Positions 1-12,510 of a stretch of DNA of 24,273 bases are shown in pieces. Under the pieces are notes generated by a model, which was given only the letters and a program-made list of their open reading frames with translations, was not told the DNA's origin and did no database searches. Positions within the stretch are counted from its first letter, which is position 1. Each line of letters begins with the position of its first letter. The translations under genes were made by a program, and so were the position numbers. The stretch is from a virus, in the IMG/VR virus record IMGVR_UViG_3300045421_000592, positions 1 to 24,273 of that record; one strand, 5' to 3'.

Positions 1-50
1 CACAATCACACCTCGACGGCAACATCATCACCACAGACTTCAAGGTTTAA
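1..50 (+). CDS. C-terminal end of a plus-strand gene cut by the window edge
   Basis: The frame starting at base 3 is open from the window edge and ends in TAA at 48-50, giving the tail QSHLDGNIITTDFKV. Most codons end in C or A, matching the plus-strand composition of the rest of this left arm. It would converge with the minus-strand gene ending at 40, overlapping it by 11 bases, an arrangement also seen at other convergent pairs here. The tail is too short to assign a family, and chance openness over 15 codons is possible. Confidence 0.35.
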   Translation, partial: QSHLDGNIITTDFKV

Positions 51-510
51 ACAAAGAAATACAACACTCCCCACAATTCATCGCCAACACCCCAGGACCC
101 ATCTGCAAATTCAACTCATAAAAAATTTTCGTGTCCAAACCACACAAATCACAAGCCGACGAATTCGGATCCACCTGCCTCATATGATCCGGAGCACACA
201 CCAAACAAGCAACACTCCGATACGCCGGCAAAATCACATGCGGCCGAGAAAAAGGCAACGAATCAATATGCGGACAAAAATTCACACACCGACGTTCAAG
301 CTCATCCAAAACGTCCCCAAGACGCAAACAAATCTCCCTCGCCACATCACCCTCAACAGACTCCAACCCAATCTCAAAACCCCTACTCAAATAATCGTCA
401 AACAACCTCTGAGCACCAACAGCCGCCTCAGACATAAACTTATCCAACAAAACATCATCAGAAAAATCAATATGATCCGGCTCACGAACACGAAACCTGG
501 CCTCACCCAC
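40..510 (-). CDS. Cys-rich zinc-binding phage protein
   Basis: A 156-aa protein starting at a GTG. The N-terminal half is acidic and probably helical. The second half has several Cys pairs: a CVNFCPH segment near residue 75, CLVC near 103, CDLC near 121 and CGECC near the C-terminus, the usual look of one or two zinc ribbons. Small proteins of this build are common hypothetical genes of actinobacteriophages; their role is unknown, and DNA or RNA binding is only a guess. No good Shine-Dalgarno sequence precedes the GTG, so the start could be at internal Met27. The coding strand is G/T-rich here, opposite to most of the window in plus-strand terms. Confidence 0.72.
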   Translation of the reverse strand: MGEARFRVREPDHIDFSDDVLLDKFMSEAAVGAQRLFDDYLSRGFEIGLESVEGDVAREICLRLGDVLDELERRCVNFCPHIDSLPFSRPHVILPAYRSVACLVCAPDHMRQVDPNSSACDLCGLDTKIFYELNLQMGPGVLAMNCGECCISLFKP

Positions 511-561
511 AACACCACACTACCCACAACCCAACCAACAACAAAAAGCACCCCCTAAACA

Positions 562-723
562 ATGGCCAACCAACGCAAATACATATGGACTTGCCCCAAA
601 TGCGGACAAACCCTCACCCTCCACATCAAAGCAACCGAAGTCATCTGCCGAAACAAAGAAGCCCACACCTCCACCCCAATCAAAATGCTCCCAACCCCCA
701 AAACCAGCCCACCAACCAGATAA
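562..723 (+). CDS. 53-aa zinc-ribbon protein
   Basis: An ATG at 562 opens a 53-codon frame ending TAA at 721-723. The product starts MANQRKYIWTCPKCG, has a third Cys near residue 29 and ends in a Pro/Thr-rich tail. The CPKCG knuckle followed by a Thr/Leu-rich strand and a later Cys/His pair resembles very small zinc-ribbon proteins found in many actinophages. Function unknown. It lies on the C/A-rich plus strand and its codons almost all end in C or A. It is therefore C-rich even though it is oriented opposite to its left neighbour, which argues that the local skew is mutational rather than a matter of gene direction. Confidence 0.7.
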   Translation: MANQRKYIWTCPKCGQTLTLHIKATEVICRNKEAHTSTPIKMLPTPKTSPPTR

Positions 724-912
724 ATCCAAACAAAAACCGAGCCCCAAACACTGGCACACACCTGCCCACCCCCGCCGCCGGCGCGCGAAAAGTTTCGGAA
801 GCCCCGTTGACAAAACCAAGACTGGCTCGACAACATAATCCTTGACTGTATTGGGGCTCAGGTGATCGTGCGAGCCATGGGATCGACAAGTCAATACCTG
901 TAGGATGTCCAT
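724..912. other. Non-coding skew-switch region, candidate replication origin
   Basis: This 189-bp gap follows a strongly C-rich stretch: by direct count the plus strand has 31 C and 4 G in 661-720, and 28 C and 8 G in 721-780. From about 850 rightward the plus strand becomes balanced and then G-rich. The gap holds a GC-rich run around 768-786, an inverted repeat GGCTC/GAGCC at 855-859 and 872-876, and repeated TCGACAA words near 827 and 882. TTGACA at 807-812 looks like a -35 box, but the nearest -10-like CATAAT is 21 bp away, too far for a standard promoter. A skew minimum with these small repeats suits an origin, but no initiator gene or iteron set is adjacent. Confidence 0.4.
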
Positions 913-1110
913 ATGCCAGCCGTAAATCGATTCGCTCATTATCAGATTGAGCAACGTCGTCGACTGGCGATCCGCATACTGGCCATTGTCTGGTTATTTG
1001 CTTTGCTTGCTCTCGATCTGAAAACCGACGTTCCGTTCACCTACACCACGATTGCTTGGTTCGTTTACGCCGCAGTTGTCTTGCTCGCCATCTTTGAGCG
1101 CAAGAAATAA
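913..1110 (+). CDS. Small two-helix membrane protein
   Basis: A 65-aa product with a basic N-terminus (EQRRR near residue 15) followed by two hydrophobic helices at about 19-34 and 44-60, ending in a charged ERKK tail. It is predicted to sit in the cytoplasmic membrane with both ends inside. An AGGA-type ribosome site lies 8-10 bases upstream of the ATG. It does not resemble a family I can name. It is the first gene right of the skew switch. A holin-like role cannot be excluded, but no endolysin is adjacent. Confidence 0.6.
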   Translation: MPAVNRFAHYQIEQRRRLAIRILAIVWLFALLALDLKTDVPFTYTTIAWFVYAAVVLLAIFERKK

Positions 1111-1177
1111 CCGTTCGTCGATGTTGTATGGTGACGTGGTGTTCGTATTCCTGCACGGGAAACGTGGAGCGTAGACG

Positions 1178-1642
1178 ATGAGCGAATCGAACAGTCCGCT
1201 AGCGCCGCTGCTACCCACCCTCACAAACGACTTCCTGTATCACGCCACGTTCCCTGATTGTGAGCAGACGATTCGTCAGGCAGGTATCGTGCCCGGTATC
1301 GATAACGTCGTGTACTTGGCCAACAAGGCGGAGTATGCGGCAGGGTTCATCAGGATTCGCAATGGCTTCAAGATGCTCGGCACGATCGAAGTCGAAACTC
1401 CCACGGGTGGCACGGAGATGACGTACGACATCAGCCAAACGAATACTGCGATCGTGTGCACGATCCTTGCAGATTTGCTTGATGCTGATGCATTGGCCGT
1501 GCACCAAGAGGAGGATGAGGTGAGTGGCTTCTACCCTTTTGATCTCGTGTCATTCAGGTACTCTCGCACTGTGCCGCCTAGTGCGATTCTGTCTTTCGAC
1601 AGTTTCAGGTTGAAGCGCTTTGATGGCGAGAGTTTCCTGTAG
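1178..1642 (+). CDS. Possible ADP-ribosyltransferase-fold (KptA/DarT-like) protein
   Basis: A 154-aa protein. The order of motifs resembles small ADP-ribosyltransferase-fold enzymes: FLYHAT near residues 19-24 (first catalytic-type His), an I..GI.P turn near 34-40, VVYLANK near 44-50, and a late RYSRTVPPSAI segment like the 'IPPe.I' of DarT/RES/KptA-type proteins. These proteins use NAD+ to modify nucleic acid or protein, or remove 2'-phosphate from RNA. Identity is by motif only and the catalytic Glu is not certain. A GGAG ribosome site lies about 10 bases before the ATG. The gene is followed by a hairpin shared with the convergent gene. Confidence 0.5.
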   Translation: MSESNSPLAPLLPTLTNDFLYHATFPDCEQTIRQAGIVPGIDNVVYLANKAEYAAGFIRIRNGFKMLGTIEVETPTGGTEMTYDISQTNTAIVCTILADLLDADALAVHQEEDEVSGFYPFDLVSFRYSRTVPPSAILSFDSFRLKRFDGESFL

Positions 1643-1661
1643 CGCCTACGGGTGACTACAG
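1637..1661. terminator. Hairpin between convergent genes, spanning both stop codons
   Basis: CTGTAG at 1637-1642 and CTACAG at 1656-1661 are perfect reverse complements around a 13-nt loop. The TAG of the plus-strand gene and the complementary CTA (stop of the minus-strand gene) both lie inside the stem, and the loop contains one copy of the ACGGGT word. No U-run follows on either side, so it would be a weak or bidirectional terminator. Confidence 0.4.
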
Positions 1662-2285
1662 CCAGGTGATCTCAAAGCCAATCGCTCTTAGACCCTGGCC
1701 GAGCGTCTTGAGGTAGACGCCGCGTTCCTGAGGCTCGTCCGCCTTCTCGACTTCGTTGAGCACTTTGCTGAACATCAGGGGGTACTTGCTGTTACCACCT
1801 CGCATGATCGTCCGACCTGGTGTAAAGATCTCCTTTTCCCATATGAGGGATCTTGGCACTGTGTACTTGTAGGGCTTCGTCATGAATAGAACTTGTTCTT
1901 GGTAGACGTGTGTGAAGGTGATGCACTCCTTGACTACGTCAGGGAGTTTGACGAACGCTTCCGGCAAAGGCATTTCCTGCGTGCGAAGGGGATCGATACT
2001 GACGTAGCCTTCGGCGATCATCGTGATCGAATCGATGCCGAGTGCTTGGCGAATGATTACTGATGCGTCGACGACTCGACCGAATCTTACCTCATGTGAT
2101 TGATCCATAAGCTGCGACGACATCTGGCAGATGGCGCTCAGGAATGGCCCGTTCCAGGCGTAGAGGTTGATGTTGATATCCTCGCCGATTCCATATTCCT
2201 TGACTGTCTGCTCTTTGACTTCCACAGCAGACGACACAGCCAATGCGAGCTTGTCTAGTGGTGATGGAAACGATGCTGGAAGCAT
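1656..2285 (-). CDS. Hypothetical phage protein, 209 aa
   Basis: No family recognised. The chosen ATG gives MLPASFPSPLDKLALAV; a TTG two codons earlier (2291) is the only upstream alternative. The product is of mixed alpha/beta character with no Cys cluster, signal peptide or membrane segment. A patch around residues 150-165 contains PGRTIMRGG. It converges with the possible ADP-ribosyltransferase gene through a shared hairpin and faces the Lys-rich gene across a short divergent gap. Confidence 0.68.
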   Translation of the reverse strand: MLPASFPSPLDKLALAVSSAVEVKEQTVKEYGIGEDININLYAWNGPFLSAICQMSSQLMDQSHEVRFGRVVDASVIIRQALGIDSITMIAEGYVSIDPLRTQEMPLPEAFVKLPDVVKECITFTHVYQEQVLFMTKPYKYTVPRSLIWEKEIFTPGRTIMRGGNSKYPLMFSKVLNEVEKADEPQERGVYLKTLGQGLRAIGFEITWL

Positions 2286-2321
2286 ATCCAATCGTACGCT
2301 TTTTTATGTGCCCGAAAATGC

Positions 2322-2350
2322 ATGTTGCGCCACGGGTGAGCTTGCGTCAA
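2322..2350 (-). promoter_or_regulatory. Weak candidate promoter for the 1656-2285 gene
   Basis: On the minus strand TTGACG (2350-2345) is followed after exactly 17 bp by CAACAT (2327-2322), 37 bp before the ATG. The -35 matches five of six consensus bases, the -10 only three. An ACGGGT word lies in the spacer. Inferred from spacing only. Confidence 0.28.
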
Positions 2351-2383
2351 CTAAGTTGTCTTGTGCAACCGATAGGAGCAGCA

Positions 2384-2560
2384 ATGTCAACAAGCAACAA
2401 GAAATCGTCAGCGAAGAAACAGTCAACAGCCAAGAAGAAGCCGACAGTCAAGAAAAACGCGAAGGAAAAAGATGCGCCGTCAGCCGTCGTCGTTTATGCG
2501 AACGACATCCAGAAGCCTGCGCTAAGAAAGCGCGTCGTTGCCTGGTTGCTCGGCAGCTGA
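2384..2560 (+). CDS. Lys-rich basic protein, histone-H1-like tail
   Basis: 58 aa from the ATG at 2384, chosen because GATAGGAG sits 5-6 bases upstream; a longer frame from 2243 would overlap the neighbouring gene. Residues 5-32 are dominated by Lys, Ser, Thr and Ala (SNKKSSAKKQSTAKKKPTV), like the tails of bacterial H1-type or Lsr2/HU tail-type DNA binders. The C-terminal half (VVVYANDIQKPALRKRVVAW) may be a short helix pair. Probably binds nucleic acid non-specifically (inference). Its TGA (2558-2560) abuts the stop of the convergent gene at 2561 with no space. Confidence 0.62.
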   Translation: MSTSNKKSSAKKQSTAKKKPTVKKNAKEKDAPSAVVVYANDIQKPALRKRVVAWLLGS

Positions 2561-2932
2561 CTATTCGAGTTCGAGATCAGGGCGATCCGAAATAGAGGGT
2601 TCCCGGAGTCGCAGTAGATCGATCGCCAAATGGCCGCGTGATGTCGCGACCCAATTCCCGTTATCGAGTTGCATGACCATTCCGTTGTTTTGCAACAGAA
2701 CCAACGCCCTCTTGCACACTGCCTGGCTTTTGAAAAGAACAGGATTGATGCTCATCAGAGCGGCTTGATCGTAGCCAGTCGAACGTGTCATCCTCGCGAA
2801 GTTCAGAGCTATGCGAGTAGTGGACACCCCTAGGGGGATGAATGCGATCATTTCCGCCATTTCTTTCGGCAGTTCCATCTGTTTTCGGCGAAGCTGTTTG
2901 CGTCGCCTACGTGCCTCTGGTGTATCAGCCAC
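2561..2932 (-). CDS. Possible winged-helix protein, 123 aa
   Basis: Starts at GTG, overlapping the stop of the upstream ribbon-helix-helix gene by 8 nt. The N-terminus is very basic (EARRRRKQLRRKQ). Residues 68-112 (SQAVCKRALVLLQNNGMV, then a Gly-Asn hairpin, then a terminal helix) have the pattern of a winged helix with recognition helix and wing. Likely a DNA-binding accessory protein; no named family. It is the last gene of the WhiB-primase block and its stop touches the stop of the convergent Lys-rich gene. Confidence 0.65.
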   Translation of the reverse strand: MADTPEARRRRKQLRRKQMELPKEMAEMIAFIPLGVSTTRIALNFARMTRSTGYDQAALMSINPVLFKSQAVCKRALVLLQNNGMVMQLDNGNWVATSRGHLAIDLLRLREPSISDRPDLELE

Positions 2933-3245
2933 GAAGCCGCTTTGTACACTTCAGGCAGAATTCGGCCCACGGGTAAGACAGGCGCATGTGCATAGGATGA
3001 TCGCATTCAAGCACCGATGTGGCTTCTTTGGAAGCCAAGCCACGCAACCATTCGCTCATTGACATGCCTGCTTTTGCGGCTGCGTCCTTCCAGCGTTCGC
3101 GCTCTTCGTCTGTCGTGCGAATGATGACTTGAGCCTGTGCCGCTTCGCCGTTCTTGGCTCCTGTCGACTTCGCTCGCGTAGGTACCAGCGTTTCGGCGAC
3201 TTTGTCCATCGCTGCGTCTAGGTTGTCGTTGTTGTCGTCACTCAT
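2925..3245 (-). CDS. Ribbon-helix-helix protein with C-terminal zinc knuckle
   Basis: 106 aa from the ATG at 3245, which overlaps the stop of the upstream gene by 8 nt; an earlier in-frame Met at 3296 would overlap by 59 nt and is less likely. Residues about 39-74 read AQVIIRTTDEERERWKDAAA followed by GMSMSEWLRGLA, a clear ribbon-helix-helix (Arc/MobC-like) domain: a beta strand, then two helices around a G-S-S/E-W turn. The last 28 residues hold CDHPMH and CLKC, fit to bind one zinc. Expected to bind DNA as a dimer. Family role in phages is usually autoregulation or nucleoprotein assembly (inference). Confidence 0.75.
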   Translation of the reverse strand: MSDDNNDNLDAAMDKVAETLVPTRAKSTGAKNGEAAQAQVIIRTTDEERERWKDAAAKAGMSMSEWLRGLASKEATSVLECDHPMHMRLSYPWAEFCLKCTKRLRG

Positions 3246-3921
3246 CTGCGTTCGCGTTTTCGTCCACGGGTAGATCTGACGCCAGTTTATCGTCACTCAA
3301 TCGATCTGTGGCAAAGCTGGCCGCCTCCAAAGCCTTAGGTCCTATCAGGTTATCCAATACCTCCTTGGACAACACGCCGCTCGAAGCCATGAGTTCTATC
3401 AGCTTCTTCGCTTCCATTTCCGGCGTGAACTGATTCGTTCGCTCGTGTGCTTGCTGAGCACCAGCCAATGTCGCGCGAATCGTTTCGCCACCAGACGTGA
3501 CGTCCATTTGTATCGACACATTGCTGCGTTCCATGCCGAGAAGCCTCGACCTCCGGTCCATTATCGACAAGACGCGATCCACGGCTTTCAAATCCGGTTC
3601 CAGCATCACTTCTTGTCCATCTTCCGATGTTTGCTTGCGATGTTGCGTCTGCGGCCAAATGTTCTGCTGCAATGAGTCGAGACGCTCCAATTCCATACGC
3701 AAAACTTCCGGATATGCGAGCATCGCCTCCGAATTGAGTTTCTCGAGCTGCCTGCGTATTGCCGAACCAACTGCCCCCGTGGTCATGCTGAATCGACGAG
3801 CTATCTCGGTGTGAGGTATGCCTGCTTGACGCATTTTGAAGATTCTGAGGTCGCGCTCAGCCAGGAACTCACGGGTAAGTGATTTCGCGGTTTTCTTTTC
3901 TTTTGGGGTTTCGTCAGACAT
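3238..3921 (-). CDS. HTH protein resembling small terminase subunits
   Basis: 227 aa. Residues about 18-58 form a helix-turn-helix (MRQAGIPHTEIARRFSMTTG). It is followed by a helical segment YPEVLRMELERLDSLQQNIWP and, after a short spacer, DRVLSIMDRRSRLLGME. That order (HTH, E.ERLD...WP, then RI..RR..LLG) is the pattern of many phage small terminase subunits, which recognise the packaging site. The C-terminal 90 residues are variable and acidic. ATG directly follows the primase TAA, with GAGG 8 nt upstream. No large terminase is in the window, so a non-packaging regulator is also possible. Confidence 0.6.
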   Translation of the reverse strand: MSDETPKEKKTAKSLTREFLAERDLRIFKMRQAGIPHTEIARRFSMTTGAVGSAIRRQLEKLNSEAMLAYPEVLRMELERLDSLQQNIWPQTQHRKQTSEDGQEVMLEPDLKAVDRVLSIMDRRSRLLGMERSNVSIQMDVTSGGETIRATLAGAQQAHERTNQFTPEMEAKKLIELMASSGVLSKEVLDNLIGPKALEAASFATDRLSDDKLASDLPVDENANADE

Positions 3922-5727
3922 TTAAAAGACCTCACCGCTATCAGGCCGCTTTTCTTCGATATCGGCTTTCATAAATTCTAGTGTCTCAAAAGGGAACTGT
4001 ACGCCACGTTTCATTTTGGACGGCCACGGGCGCCTATCGCGTGCACCCCTGAAGTGACGCACATCGTATACGTATTCAGTGCCTGACGTTTGATTTGGTG
4101 ACAGCGCCAAGCCGAATTCTGGCCAACGCGACCAAACGGCTGATCCGAAAGGTCGTAGTTCGCGTGATGTTGAGGACTGCCCCAGTGGCGCGTGGTGTTC
4201 CAGCCACAAGGCACAGTCGTATACGTCTCGGATGTAGTCGAAGAACTTCGCCACCTCAACAGCAAGCGCCTCGCTGGTCAATGTCCCCGTGTCGGCGTAG
4301 GACTTGTACAGGGGACCGACACAAAGAAGCTGAGGGCGTACTTCGTCAACTGTTTGTTCGAAAAGAGACCGCCCAGACGGTGTCATGAGATCCATTCCGG
4401 ATGGTTTGATCATCAGGTGTGCATCAGACCTTATGGCAGTTCCTCGCGCAGCACGATCTCGAGCGAATTGCTGTGCACGCTTCATGATCCATCGCGACGT
4501 TCGCCGAATGATGCGTTCAGGGTTTTCTAGATCGATCGTCAAAGTACGGATCGGAGCCATGGGTTGAAACGTAAACGGGTGCACGCCGACTGACGAGAGG
4601 ATCGCCACCTGCCGAGCGAGCATTGTTTTACCCACTCCCTCGGCAGCGACGATGATCACGCGTTCCTGCTTCTCGATGAGACCGGGTATCACCCATTCGT
4701 ACGTGTCTTTGTCGGTTTCTTCGAGGAACGTTTCCCATTCGACGAGACGGCCGTGGTCGCCGATTTCCAGGATGCCGAAACCATCAAGTAGCGCACGGGT
4801 GCGTGAAACTTTTTGATCCGTCCTGATGCTGCGACCGAATATTTCGATGATTTGTTCCAATATCCTGTTTTCGGCCAAGACTTCGGCGGTGAGACTCTCG
4901 GTTACGTTTTCTGCGGGTTGATAATCGAGTTCGACAAGGTCGTTGACGGCGTGACCAGAGTTGACGTGATCGGTTATGTCTTTTGCATAGTTGCTGACGA
5001 ACACGGACACGTTCGCGCATCCTGCGCCCTGTAATATGCGCTGGACGCCAATGGCGTGCGCTTTTCCTGCTTCGTCGTTGTCGGCGACGATTACTACGGC
5101 AGCAGCGTCTGCCAAGATGTCCGTGAACTGGGGTTCCCACGTTCCAGCGCCGCCAGCCGTGGTCGCGATGATGTTGTGTTTCTCGAGTGTGTCTACGTCT
5201 TTTTCGCCCTCGACGAGCCAGATGGGTTCTTTGTCTTCGATGGCTTTCTTGATTACGGGTAGGTTGTAGAGGACTCGTTGTTCTTTGGGGATCAGGGAAT
5301 AGATGTATTTGCCTGGCAGCGCCGGATCAGGCCGACGTTGCGAGAATCCTTTGCCGCCGTCTTCGTATCGATACTTGACCTTTTCGTACAGAACCTCGAA
5401 GTTGTCGTCTACATACTGATATACGGCTTCGACTTTGCGTTTCCCGCGATCTTTTTTGCTCGAAACAGACACGGGTAAGACTTTGTCTTGGTACAGGTCT
5501 TTCATCTCCAGGTTCATGTACCTGACGATCTGTTCCACGCTGCACGGGTTGCCGTTGTGGCACTTGATGAGCACCTGGTCGTTTCTGCCGACGCCTACGG
5601 TCAGCGATGGGTTCTCGTCGTCATTTCTGCACGGGCATTTCGCCGCCCAGCCCATGCCGCTGCGTGACACGCCATCCAGGCGGTTCAGGAAATTCTGAAC
5701 GTGCTCTGGGACGAATATCGAGTTCAC
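3922..5727 (-). CDS. Primase-helicase (CHC2-like zinc finger, TOPRIM, RecA/AAA_25 ATPase)
   Basis: 601 aa from a GTG at 5727 that overlaps the TGA of the upstream WhiB gene (GTGA). Longer upstream openness merely shadows WhiB and lacks primase features. Domains: zinc site at about 31-62 (CPC, then CH and C with a PSL between); TOPRIM at about 168-235 with E173 in LVEGEKD and D216/D218 in VADNDEAG; RecA-like ATPase from about 350 with Walker A at 361-368 (AAEGVGKT), LTIDLENP about 30 residues later and a Walker-B-type strand QLLCVGP. It should make primers and unwind or translocate DNA at the phage fork. No signs of breakage. Confidence 0.92.
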   Translation of the reverse strand: MNSIFVPEHVQNFLNRLDGVSRSGMGWAAKCPCRNDDENPSLTVGVGRNDQVLIKCHNGNPCSVEQIVRYMNLEMKDLYQDKVLPVSVSSKKDRGKRKVEAVYQYVDDNFEVLYEKVKYRYEDGGKGFSQRRPDPALPGKYIYSLIPKEQRVLYNLPVIKKAIEDKEPIWLVEGEKDVDTLEKHNIIATTAGGAGTWEPQFTDILADAAAVVIVADNDEAGKAHAIGVQRILQGAGCANVSVFVSNYAKDITDHVNSGHAVNDLVELDYQPAENVTESLTAEVLAENRILEQIIEIFGRSIRTDQKVSRTRALLDGFGILEIGDHGRLVEWETFLEETDKDTYEWVIPGLIEKQERVIIVAAEGVGKTMLARQVAILSSVGVHPFTFQPMAPIRTLTIDLENPERIIRRTSRWIMKRAQQFARDRAARGTAIRSDAHLMIKPSGMDLMTPSGRSLFEQTVDEVRPQLLCVGPLYKSYADTGTLTSEALAVEVAKFFDYIRDVYDCALWLEHHAPLGQSSTSRELRPFGSAVWSRWPEFGLALSPNQTSGTEYVYDVRHFRGARDRRPWPSKMKRGVQFPFETLEFMKADIEEKRPDSGEVF

Positions 5728-6092
5728 TTTTTGTCGGCTCGTTGTTTGGCGATGTGTTTTGCCCGGCCGGCGCGTCCCTTGGCTTGATTCCAGTCGACGT
5801 GCCAGATGAGTGCCTGTGTCGTGAATGAAACGAACGAAATTTTTTGTTCGCGTCGTATCACTCGTCGTTGTCGAGGTGAAAGACCAGCCCAAAATCCGAA
5901 TTCTTCGTGGCGTATCGCGTGTTCGTAGCACTCCGAGATAATCGGGCACTGTGTACAAACTTCTCGCGCACGGCGAAGATGATTCTTGTTTTCTTCGAGC
6001 ATTCGTGACGGAGGGAAAAACCAATCTTTGGGGAGTCCGGCGCAGGCCGCGAACGCGATCTTTTTATAGAACTGTTCACTTTGCTCGCTCAT
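5724..6092 (-). CDS. whiB: WhiB-family Fe-S transcription factor
   Basis: 122 aa. The four cluster ligands are all visible: C17, C46, C49 and C55 (CTQC then C after five residues), followed by the conserved turn GFWAGLS at 66-72 and a basic PRQRR DNA-binding stretch. The family binds a [4Fe-4S] cluster, partners with the primary sigma factor and is confined to actinobacteria and their phages. Phage copies such as that of TM4 interfere with the host WhiB2 programme (established knowledge). A strong GAGGAGGG ribosome site precedes the ATG by 4 nt. The 3' end is fused by a GTGA overlap to the primase gene, so the two are probably translated together. Confidence 0.95.
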   Translation of the reverse strand: MSEQSEQFYKKIAFAACAGLPKDWFFPPSRMLEENKNHLRRAREVCTQCPIISECYEHAIRHEEFGFWAGLSPRQRRVIRREQKISFVSFTTQALIWHVDWNQAKGRAGRAKHIAKQRADKK

Positions 6093-6156
6093 GCGACCCT
6101 CCTCAATTTCGTCTAGGGAGGTTACCGAATTTTCTTACGTCAAGCAAGAGTCTTCT

Positions 6157-6984
6157 TTACGTCCAGCAATAACCTTCGTCGCATTTTCCTTGATTGAAAA
6201 CTTCGGGTCCAAAGAGTTCGTCTTGTTCGGCAACCATCGCCTCACGGAGGGGTTTGCCGGTTCCTGTGAGGAACACTTCGCCTTTGTTGCGCTCGCGGCG
6301 CCGCTCCAGTAGTTTATCTTCTAGTTGGGCCGCTTTCTCGAAAAGCTCGGGTTCGTCGCGTCGAAGAACTCGCCATGTTTTAGCAGAATGGAAAGGGCAA
6401 AAGAAACAAGACGATTTAGGTGGTACGGGTAAACCAACGCGATCGAACACGCCTACGCAATTGCTGCGGTGATACCCGATATCGAGAAGAGGATAGACGC
6501 GTTTCTCCCACCGTTCGTCACGGCCGCGTCCAGCGCGTTCGAGTTCGTCGACCGAAATACCTACGCACACTTCGATCGGAAGCACCGACTTGTCGTAATG
6601 CTTTTCGATCCATTTGCCCACGACCTTGATTTTGTGATCTGCTGTGCAGGATCGCCGCATTGGTTTGCCGGTGTAACCATAGATCGGTATGGGTTCGCGC
6701 AGGGTGTCTCCCTTGTGGTCCATGATGCGCCCCCAAAGGGTCTGTTCGGACCCATCTCGCAGATATCGGCGCAGCTCGTGGACTTCGATTCCCTGCTTGG
6801 CAGCCCACGGGATCATAATTTCGCGGACATATTTCAGGGTTGCCGGGTGCTCGCTGTCGTCTCCGGTGTTGGCGAACAGCGCGTAGTCGATCGGTGGGAC
6901 TTCTCCGAGCGCCGCCAGGATGATCAGTGCCGAACTTTGAACACCGCCACCGTAGGAGAGAATCCTGTTGTGCTTTTGGGCCAT
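6157..6984 (-). CDS. PP-loop ATPase, PAPS-reductase-like family (1)
   Basis: 275 aa. The PP-loop ATP-pyrophosphatase motif is at residues 8-19 (ILSYGGGVQSSA). Other landmarks are GDDSEHP near 41-47, RRSCTADHKIK near 109-119 and SSCFFCPFHS near 190-200, giving three Cys residues able to bind a metal or carry sulfur. Such phage genes are usually annotated as PAPS reductase, but the family also includes tRNA- and DNA-thiolating enzymes such as DndC; true sulfate reduction is doubtful here. AAGGAG lies 7 nt before the ATG. The upstream 100-bp gap, shared with the divergent 7085 gene, carries two ACGGGT words. Confidence 0.8.
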   Translation of the reverse strand: MAQKHNRILSYGGGVQSSALIILAALGEVPPIDYALFANTGDDSEHPATLKYVREIMIPWAAKQGIEVHELRRYLRDGSEQTLWGRIMDHKGDTLREPIPIYGYTGKPMRRSCTADHKIKVVGKWIEKHYDKSVLPIEVCVGISVDELERAGRGRDERWEKRVYPLLDIGYHRSNCVGVFDRVGLPVPPKSSCFFCPFHSAKTWRVLRRDEPELFEKAAQLEDKLLERRRERNKGEVFLTGTGKPLREAMVAEQDELFGPEVFNQGKCDEGYCWT

Positions 6985-7084
6985 CTCTCGTCTCCTTGAC
7001 GTTGCTACTGCTTTTCAACAGTACCACGGGTAACGACAGCCCTACGGGTGGCGTTGGAACTACTGACGCTGATAGCCTGACTCA

Positions 7085-7411
7085 ATGGGCTTTGAAATCG
7101 AGCATCCACCCCTGGCCATCAGAAAGAGAATTCTGAACAAATACTACTACAAGGCAATTGAGGTCGCGTGCATTGATCATGCCACCGAACGAGACGCCGG
7201 AGACGACGCTGGCGAGCAGGCGGTGTTGGCCGTGCATTATAAAGCCATGCTTTCTTACAGTCGTATGATGCAAGAGCTGTACGAGGCATTCAACCCCGAA
7301 CTCTGGCGCAAACGACTGAAGCAAGAAGAGAAGAAGGTCCATTGGAAAAAGTTGGGATTTAGGTCGAAGAAGGAATACGAAGAGTGGAAGAAATACTCGG
7401 AGGATTTCTAA
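7085..7411 (+). CDS. Small charged protein carrying an antisense copy of ParB-like gene DNA
   Basis: 108 aa, no recognised family; predicted mostly helical, acidic at the N-terminus and Lys-rich at the C-terminus. Codons 34-50 (ERDAGDDAGEQAVLAV) are encoded by a 48-bp stretch identical to the complement of the DGQHR region of the 10308-11333 gene. The segment is exactly 16 codons long, so the frame continues. The second half (ELWRKRLKQEEKKVHWKKLG) looks like a genuine protein with normal codon use. A -10-like TAGCCT lies 9 bp before the ATG and no strong ribosome site is present, so leaderless translation is possible. Confidence 0.58.
   Translation: MGFEIEHPPLAIRKRILNKYYYKAIEVACIDHATERDAGDDAGEQAVLAVHYKAMLSYSRMMQELYEAFNPELWRKRLKQEEKKVHWKKLGFRSKKEYEEWKKYSEDF
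7186..7233. repeat. 48-bp perfect repeat, copy A (inside 7085-7411)
   Basis: Identical base for base to 10952-10999, with sharp loss of similarity on both sides. This copy is read in the plus direction, the other in the minus direction. The complement of this copy encodes GQHRLLASVVSGVSF, the signature of the DGQHR/ParB-like protein. Confidence 0.95.
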
Positions 7412-7432
7412 AAGTGATGGTAGGGTGGGGAA

Positions 7433-7657
7433 ATGAGCAGTTACACGAACGACGACGAAATCAGAGAAATCAAAGCAACGCTTGATTCGCTTGTCACCCT
7501 GGTGCGAACGGTTGCCGAGCAACTCTCCGGAATTGAAACATCCCTCCGCAACAACCTCCCGACTGCGGCCCAACGCCTTCAGGCGGTTACGGGTTCAAAG
7601 TCGAGCGTTCTGAACGACCTGCCGTCGATTGGTTCTTTGACAACAAAAACTAAGTGA
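7433..7657 (+). CDS. Small coiled-coil-like hypothetical protein, 74 aa
   Basis: The ATG at 7433 follows a GGTGGGG ribosome site. Residues 8-42 have a heptad-like pattern of Ile/Leu/Val (IREIKATLDSLVTLVRTVAE), suggesting a short coiled coil; the tail is Ser/Thr-rich. The stop TGA overlaps the stop of the convergent PP-loop gene by 8 nt. No family recognised; the 22-nt gap behind the 7085 gene suggests a two-gene plus-strand operon. Confidence 0.55.
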   Translation: MSSYTNDDEIREIKATLDSLVTLVRTVAEQLSGIETSLRNNLPTAAQRLQAVTGSKSSVLNDLPSIGSLTTKTK

Positions 7658-9936: not shown

Positions 9937-10155
9937 TCAGACGTCGATTATCGACTTTGGCTCCACATCGAGCGCCGTGCATATGCGGAAGAACGTGTCG
10001 AGGCTCGGTGAGAAGTGCCCGTTTTCGATCCTGTTGATCGTTTTGCGGTTGACGCCGGCCGCGTTGGCGACAGCGCGTTGGGTTACGCCGATTTCGATGC
10101 GTCGCGCTCTGATGAGTTTGGCGACCTGGTTTGCGCTGTGGGACTTTGTTGTCAT
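9937..10155 (-). CDS. XRE-family helix-turn-helix regulator
   Basis: 72 aa, just one Cro/C1-type HTH domain: VAKLIRARRIEIGVTQRAVA, then the recognition segment GVNRKTINRIENG and a closing helix SLDTFFRICTALDVEP. This is the usual compact DNA-binding domain of phage repressors and antitoxins, here without any extra domain for cleavage or oligomerisation. A purine-rich AAAGAAATGAG precedes the ATG. Likely represses its own promoter in the 10156-10307 gap or that of the ParB-like gene upstream (inference). Confidence 0.88.
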   Translation of the reverse strand: MTTKSHSANQVAKLIRARRIEIGVTQRAVANAAGVNRKTINRIENGHFSPSLDTFFRICTALDVEPKSIIDV

Positions 10156-10292
10156 TGTGTGCTCATTTCTTTGATGGGTGTTTTGAGGGGGGCAGTTTTA
10201 TGACGTGCCCAGGTCAAAACAACCGTTGCGCAGTTTGGAAGGAAACAACTACGGCTCGGTGGGTGGCTGTTCATCGCCCTTTCCAGCGTGTT

Positions 10293-10308
10293 GGTTTCGC
10301 CGGAAACC
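10293..10308 (-). terminator. Short hairpin at the end of the ParB-like gene
   Basis: GGTTTC and GAAACC form a perfect 6-bp stem around a 4-nt loop, touching the TAG stop of the ParB-like gene. No U-run follows, so intrinsic termination would be weak. The remaining 137 bp up to the XRE start contains a G-rich run (10185-10192) and no gene that I can support. Confidence 0.35.
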
Positions 10309-11333
10309 TATTCGTCTTCGTTGGTTTCCTCGGCCGGCTTGCCGGTCTTCCAGTCGAACGGTGTCGCCGTGGAGACTGCCGGGAATTCGGAATCGGTGCG
10401 GGTGCCCCACTGGCGCACCAGGCTCATCTGGCGGCCGTTGATGTAGGCGTTGAACACCCGCATGATGGTTCCGGCTTCGCGGAAGTTGCGTGCGTTGGCG
10501 CCAGCGGTCGTGCCGGTCTTCAGCATGAACGAGCGCAACGCGAGACGCGGGTCGCCGCCGTTGAATCCGATGCCCTTGCAGGTTTCGTCGACGAACTGCT
10601 CGATGAGCTTGCGGCCGCGGACTCGCGAAGCGAGGATTGCGAAGATTCCCCACGCCGAGTTGATTCCGCCGATGCCGTACTTGGCTTTCATGCCGAGGGT
10701 CTTTGCCCAGTCCACGAGGTCTTCGTGTTCGGTGCAGAACTGCACGAGGTCATCGCCGGTGACCAGGATCATCGTTCCGTGTTGGAGCGGGTTGAGACCT
10801 GCGTCCAGGGTGATCACTGGGCGGACCATTGCGCCGATGAATGTCGAGTTGGCGAAACCGCCGACCTTGAGCACGTCACCGTTGGTGCGCGAGACGCCCC
10901 TGTCGATGACCGAGAAGACCGAGGACGGCAAGTTGGAGATCAACTGGCACTCGAACGAGACGCCGGAGACGACGCTGGCGAGCAGGCGGTGTTGGCCGTC
11001 GATCAGCACGTCGTTGCCTTGGTCGTCTTTGGCGAGTCGGATTGCGTCGCCCGTGTAGACCCACTGACCACGCGTCATCGCTGATGCGTAGGCCTTGCAG
11101 CGCTCTTCCTTGACCTTGCGGTTGTTGACGTTCAGCGTCAGCAGTTCCGCGGCGATTGCCGGGCTGATGACTGTCTTCAATCCGTTGTTCGACTTCGCGA
11201 TCAAGCTGCGCGTTGTCGGCGACATCTTGACTGGCGCCGGCGTCGGGATGCTGTCGCCGGTCTTCTGGCTTGTGGTTGCTCCCACTTCGGGGATCGACAC
11301 CTTGGTGGGTGCCACTTTGGTCTTTCTGGGCAT
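10308..11333 (-). CDS. DGQHR/ParB-like protein
   Basis: 341 aa. A low-complexity N-terminus (1-45, rich in Pro, Thr, Ser) leads into a ParB/sulfiredoxin-fold domain: NVNNRKVKEERCKAYASAM near 68-86, RGQWVYTGDAIRLA near 88-101 and the hallmark VLIDGQHRLLASVVSG at 109-124. The rest is helical and may bind DNA. Actinophage versions are often called ParB-like partition proteins. The DGQHR signature is shared with DndB, a regulator of DNA phosphorothioation. GGAGG sits 6 nt before the ATG and a good promoter precedes it. The DGQHR-coding DNA is duplicated at 7186-7233. Confidence 0.82.
   Translation of the reverse strand: MPRKTKVAPTKVSIPEVGATTSQKTGDSIPTPAPVKMSPTTRSLIAKSNNGLKTVISPAIAAELLTLNVNNRKVKEERCKAYASAMTRGQWVYTGDAIRLAKDDQGNDVLIDGQHRLLASVVSGVSFECQLISNLPSSVFSVIDRGVSRTNGDVLKVGGFANSTFIGAMVRPVITLDAGLNPLQHGTMILVTGDDLVQFCTEHEDLVDWAKTLGMKAKYGIGGINSAWGIFAILASRVRGRKLIEQFVDETCKGIGFNGGDPRLALRSFMLKTGTTAGANARNFREAGTIMRVFNAYINGRQMSLVRQWGTRTDSEFPAVSTATPFDWKTGKPAEETNEDE
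10952..10999. repeat. 48-bp perfect repeat, copy B (DGQHR codons of the ParB-like gene)
   Basis: Identical to 7186-7233. On the minus strand it encodes residues 112-128 of the ParB-like protein. Because this motif is a conserved family signature here, this copy is the likely donor. Confidence 0.95.
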
Positions 11334-11430: not shown

Positions 11431-11473
11431 TACCCCCCAGCCACCCGGTTCTACCCCCCCAGCCACCCGGTTC
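11431..11473. repeat. Tandem 21/22-bp direct repeat in a divergent promoter region
   Basis: Two adjoining copies of TACCCCCCAGCCACCCGGTTC at 11431-11451 and 11452-11473; the second has one extra C in the C-run and is otherwise identical. Immediately to the left, 11416-11430 is an AT-rich near-palindrome, TCAAAAATTTTTTGA. Together they fill the space between the ParB-like promoter and the DUF932 start. An operator for a regulator such as the XRE, WhiB or ParB-like protein is a natural reading; the two-copy, 21-bp period (two helical turns) supports cooperative binding (inference). Confidence 0.7.
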
Positions 11474-11490: not shown

Positions 11491-12510
11491 ATGGGTCACG
11501 AAATAGAAATCAATAGGGACGGCACCGCCAGGTTCGCCTATGTGGACGTCGGGGTGGCCCCCTGGCATCGCCTTGGGACGAGCGTAAAAGGGCTGCAAAC
11601 AGCCGAAAAGATGCTCGAGGTCGCCCAGGCTGACTTTGACGTCCTGCTTACCCGCGTAGCCGCCGTAGACGACAACGGAGAACTCATTCTCAATACAGAC
11701 GGCACTCCTGTCATTATTCGGGATTCCAGGGCGACAGTGCGCCAAAACCCGGATGGCACCTTTGACCCACTGTCGACCGTGGGCACTCGCTATGAGGTGA
11801 GGCAGAACAGAGAAGTTCTCGAGCGCGCCCTCGCCGTCGTCGGTGCGTCAGCCGGTGACGCCGTTATGGACACGGTAGGCGTCTTGCGCGATGGCAAACG
11901 TTTTTTCGCCACGATCGAACTTGGAGCGCTCGTCATCGACCCCAAGGGTATCAACGATCGCATCGCCAGGTACCTCGTTGTTTCTTCTGGCCATGACGGT
12001 GTGTGGCCGATCAGGTATGCCAACACCGACATACGGGCGGTGTGCAAAAACACCGTCGCGCTTGGGATCAAGGAAGCGGAGCGGGTGTTCACCGCTCGAC
12101 ACACGCGCAACGTTGACCACGCGCTCGAAGATGCTCGCGAAGTGTTGCGAATCTCCGTCGAATGGGCAAAGCATTTCCAAATCCTTGCCGAGAAGATGCT
12201 TCTCACGAAAATACCTCTCGGATCACCGAAGATCGATCAAGTAATCAACAAAGTTTTCCCGGATGATTCTGACACCAGTCGGCAGCGCAAAAACAGGAAT
12301 GAAGCGATTGGGCTCGTGAAAAGTATTTACAACAACTCGAACAACGTCGGTAAGTGCGGACACAACGGCTGGTCGTTGTACAACGCGATCGTCGAGTATC
12401 TCGATCACTTCCGTGGCACCTCGATACAAGAACGCGCCATCGCTTCTATGGATGAAGCATCTCTTGTCACGCAGAAGAAACTCCTGACGCAAGCAGCCGT
12501 GCTATCTTAG
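11491..12510 (+). CDS. DUF932 / phage-plasmid-like protein (TIGR03299 type)
   Basis: 339 aa. The opening with GVAPWHRLG at 21-29, the central RYLVVSSGHDGVWPIRYANTD-like block near 160-180 and the late HNGWSLYNAIVEYLDHFRG segment near 288-306 are the landmarks of the DUF932 family found in phages and plasmids. The biochemical role is not established; members often sit next to replication, recombination or DNA-modification genes. The ATG is preceded by TGGAAC at 3-8 nt and by a -10-like TATCCT at 11478-11483, so the leader would be very short or absent. It is divergent from the ParB-like gene across the tandem repeat. Confidence 0.85.
   Translation: MGHEIEINRDGTARFAYVDVGVAPWHRLGTSVKGLQTAEKMLEVAQADFDVLLTRVAAVDDNGELILNTDGTPVIIRDSRATVRQNPDGTFDPLSTVGTRYEVRQNREVLERALAVVGASAGDAVMDTVGVLRDGKRFFATIELGALVIDPKGINDRIARYLVVSSGHDGVWPIRYANTDIRAVCKNTVALGIKEAERVFTARHTRNVDHALEDAREVLRISVEWAKHFQILAEKMLLTKIPLGSPKIDQVINKVFPDDSDTSRQRKNRNEAIGLVKSIYNNSNNVGKCGHNGWSLYNAIVEYLDHFRGTSIQERAIASMDEASLVTQKKLLTQAAVLS

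Follow-up and report, generated by a model that had tools for sequence, protein, structure and literature searches.

The window analyzed here is the whole 24,273-nucleotide stretch of IMG/VR virus record IMGVR_UViG_3300045421_000592, in which two unrelated genes 3.8 kb apart contain the same 48 bp. The two genes, referred to as gene 7085 (the putative recipient) and the ParB-like gene (the putative donor), and the two copies of the segment are as follows:

7085-7411, plus strand: gene 7085, 108 aa, an orphan with coding-like codon usage, predicted to be all helical
7186-7233, plus strand: the copy in gene 7085, running from codon 34 position 3 to codon 50 position 2
10308-11333, minus strand: the ParB-like gene, 341 aa, phrog_5931 (unknown function)
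10952-10999, minus strand: the segment in the ParB-like gene, codons 112-128, DGQHRLLASVVSGVSFE

The two copies are identical at 48 of 48 positions, form a direct repeat in the same orientation, and are bordered directly by unrelated sequence, so that the exact match with sharp edges reported by the first-pass annotation is borne out. A comparison of the window against itself, also proposed there, revealed no other exact repeat of 16 bp or longer whose copies are separated by 500 bp or more. The longest exact repeat in each of 100 second-order Markov simulations of the window measured 13 to 18 bp. Because the simulated windows reach at most 18 bp, the repeat is confirmed as real and far above chance. 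In the ParB-like gene, the segment extends from codon 112 position 2 to codon 128 position 1 and reads (D)GQHRLLASVVSGVSF(E). Gene 7085 reads it from the opposite strand as (T)ERDAGDDAGEQAVLA(V), with first codon positions lying opposite the third positions of the donor. The copied codons 34-50 form an alanine-rich stretch that is acidic, as had been described.

The name "ParB-like" denotes resemblance only and comes from annotated distant phage homologues that are about 26% identical, including a homologous region in a mycobacteriophage annotated as "ParB-like nuclease domain protein". A search for a ParB-domain profile gave no Pfam match at an E value of 0.1 and no NCBIfam match at an E value of 1. 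A closer homologue is encoded on the related contig L146, with 76% protein identity. It retains IDGQHRLLA, and the segment, in which the earlier annotation placed the family signature (DGQHR), encodes the conserved motif DGQHRL. Since the segment encodes a motif conserved in the donor family, the ParB-like gene is likely the source, and copying would have run from there into gene 7085. The recipient copy matches the ParB-like gene of its own phage at 48 of 48 positions in the window (47 of 48 in the second contig described below), whereas the L146 gene matches the donor segment at only 34 of 48, which suggests that the copying took place after the split from L146 or that the segment has been overwritten since. 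The ParB-like gene also has the highest third-position GC content of the genes measured (0.84, compared with 0.51-0.76 elsewhere).

Gene 7085 has a codon score of 0.35 bits per codon in its plus frame, within the 0.13-0.49 of the other window genes, and its antisense frame scores -0.02. The minus-strand ORF at 7082-7573 was considered as the true gene and rejected on the same measure (-0.03 versus 0.35). An AlphaFold2 model of the protein, made from the single unaligned sequence, is all helical with a mean pLDDT of 71. In this model, the copied residues 34-50 span a predicted turn between two helices, the turn itself being residues 35-40. Profile searches of the protein against PHROGs and NCBIfam returned nothing, and Pfam gave just two sub-threshold matches. 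Apart from the second contig, no homologue was found by tblastn against phage records and plasmids, by pattern scans of viral contigs and 84,980 bacterial and archaeal species genomes, or in the whole records of 49 further related phage contigs. Gene 7085 is therefore best described as a putative accessory orphan. The alignment of homologues that had been suggested consequently extends to the second contig, which carries the segment, and to no further homologue in the records searched. A homologue of gene 7085 lacking the segment, and thus representing an empty site, was found neither in phages and plasmids nor in species genomes and viral contigs, so insertion and replacement are not distinguishable. 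No copy-free relative, and hence no insertion as such, was seen among the records searched, which counts against the explanation favored below, and a reading of the segment as an insertion rather than a replacement is not supported.

The surroundings of gene 7085 differ among related phages. In two related loci (L085 and L086), a 110-aa MazG-domain gene precedes PP-loop gene 1 (about 90% identical). In three others (L004-L006), a different gene of 134 aa, nuclease-like by eye, comes after PP-loop gene 2 (94%) and a homologue of the gene at 7433. Because the neighboring genes of the relatives border other genes (the MazG-like gene and the 134-aa ORF), gene 7085 sits at a mosaic junction. Elsewhere in the window, a 19-bp perfect tandem-like repeat, CCCCCCAGCCACCCGGTTC, lies at 11433-11473, with copies 22 bp apart, just upstream of the DUF932 gene at 11491; it is a possible operator.

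A second contig, IMGVR_UViG_3300045010_000409 (L001, also listed as L148), is the same as window positions 1-7242 except at 1070, 4999, and 7230. The overlap identity is 99.96%, and the contig runs approximately 5.4 kb past the left end of the window. It continues from the left flank through the copy and stops 9 nt into the right flank. One of the three differences falls inside the repeat:

7230, no strand: C in the window, A in the second contig

The donor base is present at this position in the window and in the two known ParB-like genes. The repeat match in the second contig is thus 44 bp, one mismatch, and then CGT, the right-end CGT being common to both contigs. The first-pass annotation had argued that a length of exactly 16 codons preserved the recipient frame. 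This argument is unsafe because of the 44 + 3 match in the second contig, and the 48-mer is, in addition, free of stop codons in six of six frames. On the donor side, a long antisense ORF of 317 aa (10131-11084) covers much of the ParB-like gene. Since the 48-mer contains no stop in any frame, the open frame of the recipient is explicable without selection. Frame survival was therefore rejected as a mark of selection, as the length is the one property of relevance here and differs in the second contig.

The second contig also bears on whether the copy was pasted into gene 7085 by the assembler from ParB-like reads. Its end just 9 nt past the repeat and the difference inside the repeat at 7230 resemble a site that is hard to assemble. 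However, a separate contig that spans the left junction and reaches 9 nt past the copy argues against a mis-join, although the two samples are not necessarily independent. Moreover, the flanks share one open frame with uniform codon usage, so that two mis-joins would be needed in two contigs. An assembly artefact is thus unlikely. An exact-match search with a 23-mer across the right junction gave no occurrence, and a match of a left-flank 19-mer in contig L158 was dismissed as a chance match, as the contig is unrelated.

The A at 7230 in the second contig may be a contig-end error, a later mutation, or a sign that the window copy was converted toward the donor. The last of these would imply an ancestral copy of about 44 bp that ongoing gene conversion later made more similar to the ParB-like gene, with an A-to-C change at 7230 in the lineage of the window. 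That one of only three differences over 7242 bases lies within the 48 bp, and that it brings the window copy into full agreement with the donor, fits this proposal and counts against a single old event; by simple arithmetic, the chance of such a placement is about 2%. Against it, only one base carries the signal, this base lies 13 nt from a contig end, a region prone to errors, and the opposite direction, a mutation in the second contig, is equally simple. We consider ongoing conversion quite unlikely.

An 8-bp direct repeat brackets the copy:

7167-7174, plus strand: left member, CGTGCATT, 11 bp outside the left edge of the copy
7231-7238, plus strand: right member, CGTGCATT, sharing 3 bp with the right end of the 48-bp match

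This sequence occurs just twice on the plus strand of the window, and flanks sharing at least 8 bp were found for 52 of 4000 random 48-bp segments (1.3%). The pair would fit slippage or a strand returning to an earlier position. It is only suggestive because 11 bp of non-donor sequence separate the left member from the copy, and the resulting lack of clear junction microhomology counts against a templated copy.

The same direct repeat, together with the in-frame position of the segment within a gene, could be read as the trace of a small mobile element present in both genes. Rickettsia palindromic elements are short sequences that lie in frame inside protein genes, and the 48-bp copy resembles them in this respect. 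However, it belongs to no repeat family, is not palindromic, and has a functional gene segment as its source. Only two copies are present in the window, no exact 48-mer occurs in IMG/VR viral contigs, and no terminal inverted repeats were found, so that neither the multiple dispersed copies nor the inverted termini expected of such elements or of MITEs were observed. Furthermore, the donor segment is a conserved family motif and not an insertion. A mobile element is, in our judgment, scarcely credible.

The possibility of antisense pairing was also raised in the first-pass annotation. Here, the mRNAs of gene 7085 and the ParB-like gene would pair over 48 nt, and one would silence the other through RNase III cleavage. 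The genes lie on opposite strands, their transcripts are complementary over 48 nt, the calculated duplex energy is -113.4 kcal/mol, and the local co-fold is -169.4 as compared to -97.4 for the two RNAs alone. A 48-nt duplex is thus physically possible, but any 48-bp copy in this orientation would pair likewise. The sites show no unusual accessibility, with a mean unpaired probability of 0.39 (0.46 and 0.40 for the whole mRNAs), and they lie within coding regions, distant from the start sites. In the second contig, one pair is lost and the duplex energy is -106.2, and conservation of the pairing was seen in no relative. With average accessibility and a lost pair, a function in trans-antisense control is very unlikely. 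The more specific proposal, that gene 7085 gained a built-in antisense RNA to the conserved ParB-like motif so that production of one protein dampens that of the other, is highly improbable.

The most probable explanation is that the segment is a recent, short, templated ectopic copy of the ParB-like gene, made by a template switch or by illegitimate recombination and tolerated in an orphan gene. During replication or repair, a strand at gene 7085 would have been briefly templated on the ParB-like gene 3.8 kb away; alternatively, a short fragment of the ParB-like gene may have been joined into gene 7085 by illegitimate recombination. Either route would leave an exact copy of 44-48 bp within gene 7085. 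We infer that this copy, whether inserted or replacing earlier sequence, was then tolerated as an acidic, alanine-rich stretch at the predicted inter-helix turn. Templated insertions arising from polymerase template switching are exact short copies of sequence elsewhere in the genome, and an exact copy with sharp ends is what the 48-bp repeat presents. It differs from such insertions in that microhomology is not demonstrated at both junctions and no empty site is known. Of the micro-scale illegitimate recombination proposed earlier, ectopic copying into a protein gene is the best supported part, and a second contig supports its reality, whereas insertion and a frame-saving length were not supported.

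The general kind of event is already known. The illegitimate recombination and mosaicism of tailed phages (PMC2327257) likewise produce sharp-edged patches in a foreign context without extended homology, at mosaic gene junctions. However, tailed-phage mosaicism exchanges whole gene modules, whereas the patch described here comes from the same genome, is shorter than 50 bp, and lies antisense inside a reading frame. A literature search found no described phage case of the same kind. To place the copy among related loci, 151 other phage loci were surveyed, comprising 143 related-phage loci (1.42 Mb) and eight reference-phage regions, and exact repeats of at least 40 bp were found in two. Among the related-phage loci, there was one other such repeat with copies at least 1 kb apart, an 83-bp direct repeat (5696-5778 and 6829-6911 of L144) that flanks a PP-loop gene. 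Its first copy forms the beginning of the gene upstream, and the second, on the far side of the PP-loop gene, is a truncated remnant, a pattern that resembles insertion of the PP-loop gene as a cassette. Among the reference-phage regions, Rhodococcus phage Apiary (L150) has one exact repeat of 50 bp (201-250 and 3302-3351), with one copy located where no genes are annotated and the other inside a hypothetical protein gene; this is a possible parallel to the 48-bp copy. Such copies are therefore uncommon but not unique.

Taken together, the copy is real and is probably a minor recombination scar, and nothing indicates that it acts. It would become informative only if a relative with an empty site, or a survey, gave the rate of such copies. 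As a recombination scar, it illustrates the piecing together of new protein sequence in phages. The example is clean and datable: a few dozen bases of one gene have come to serve, on the opposite strand, as new codons of an unrelated gene. Protein sequence gained by this route usually escapes notice, since its source has diverged.
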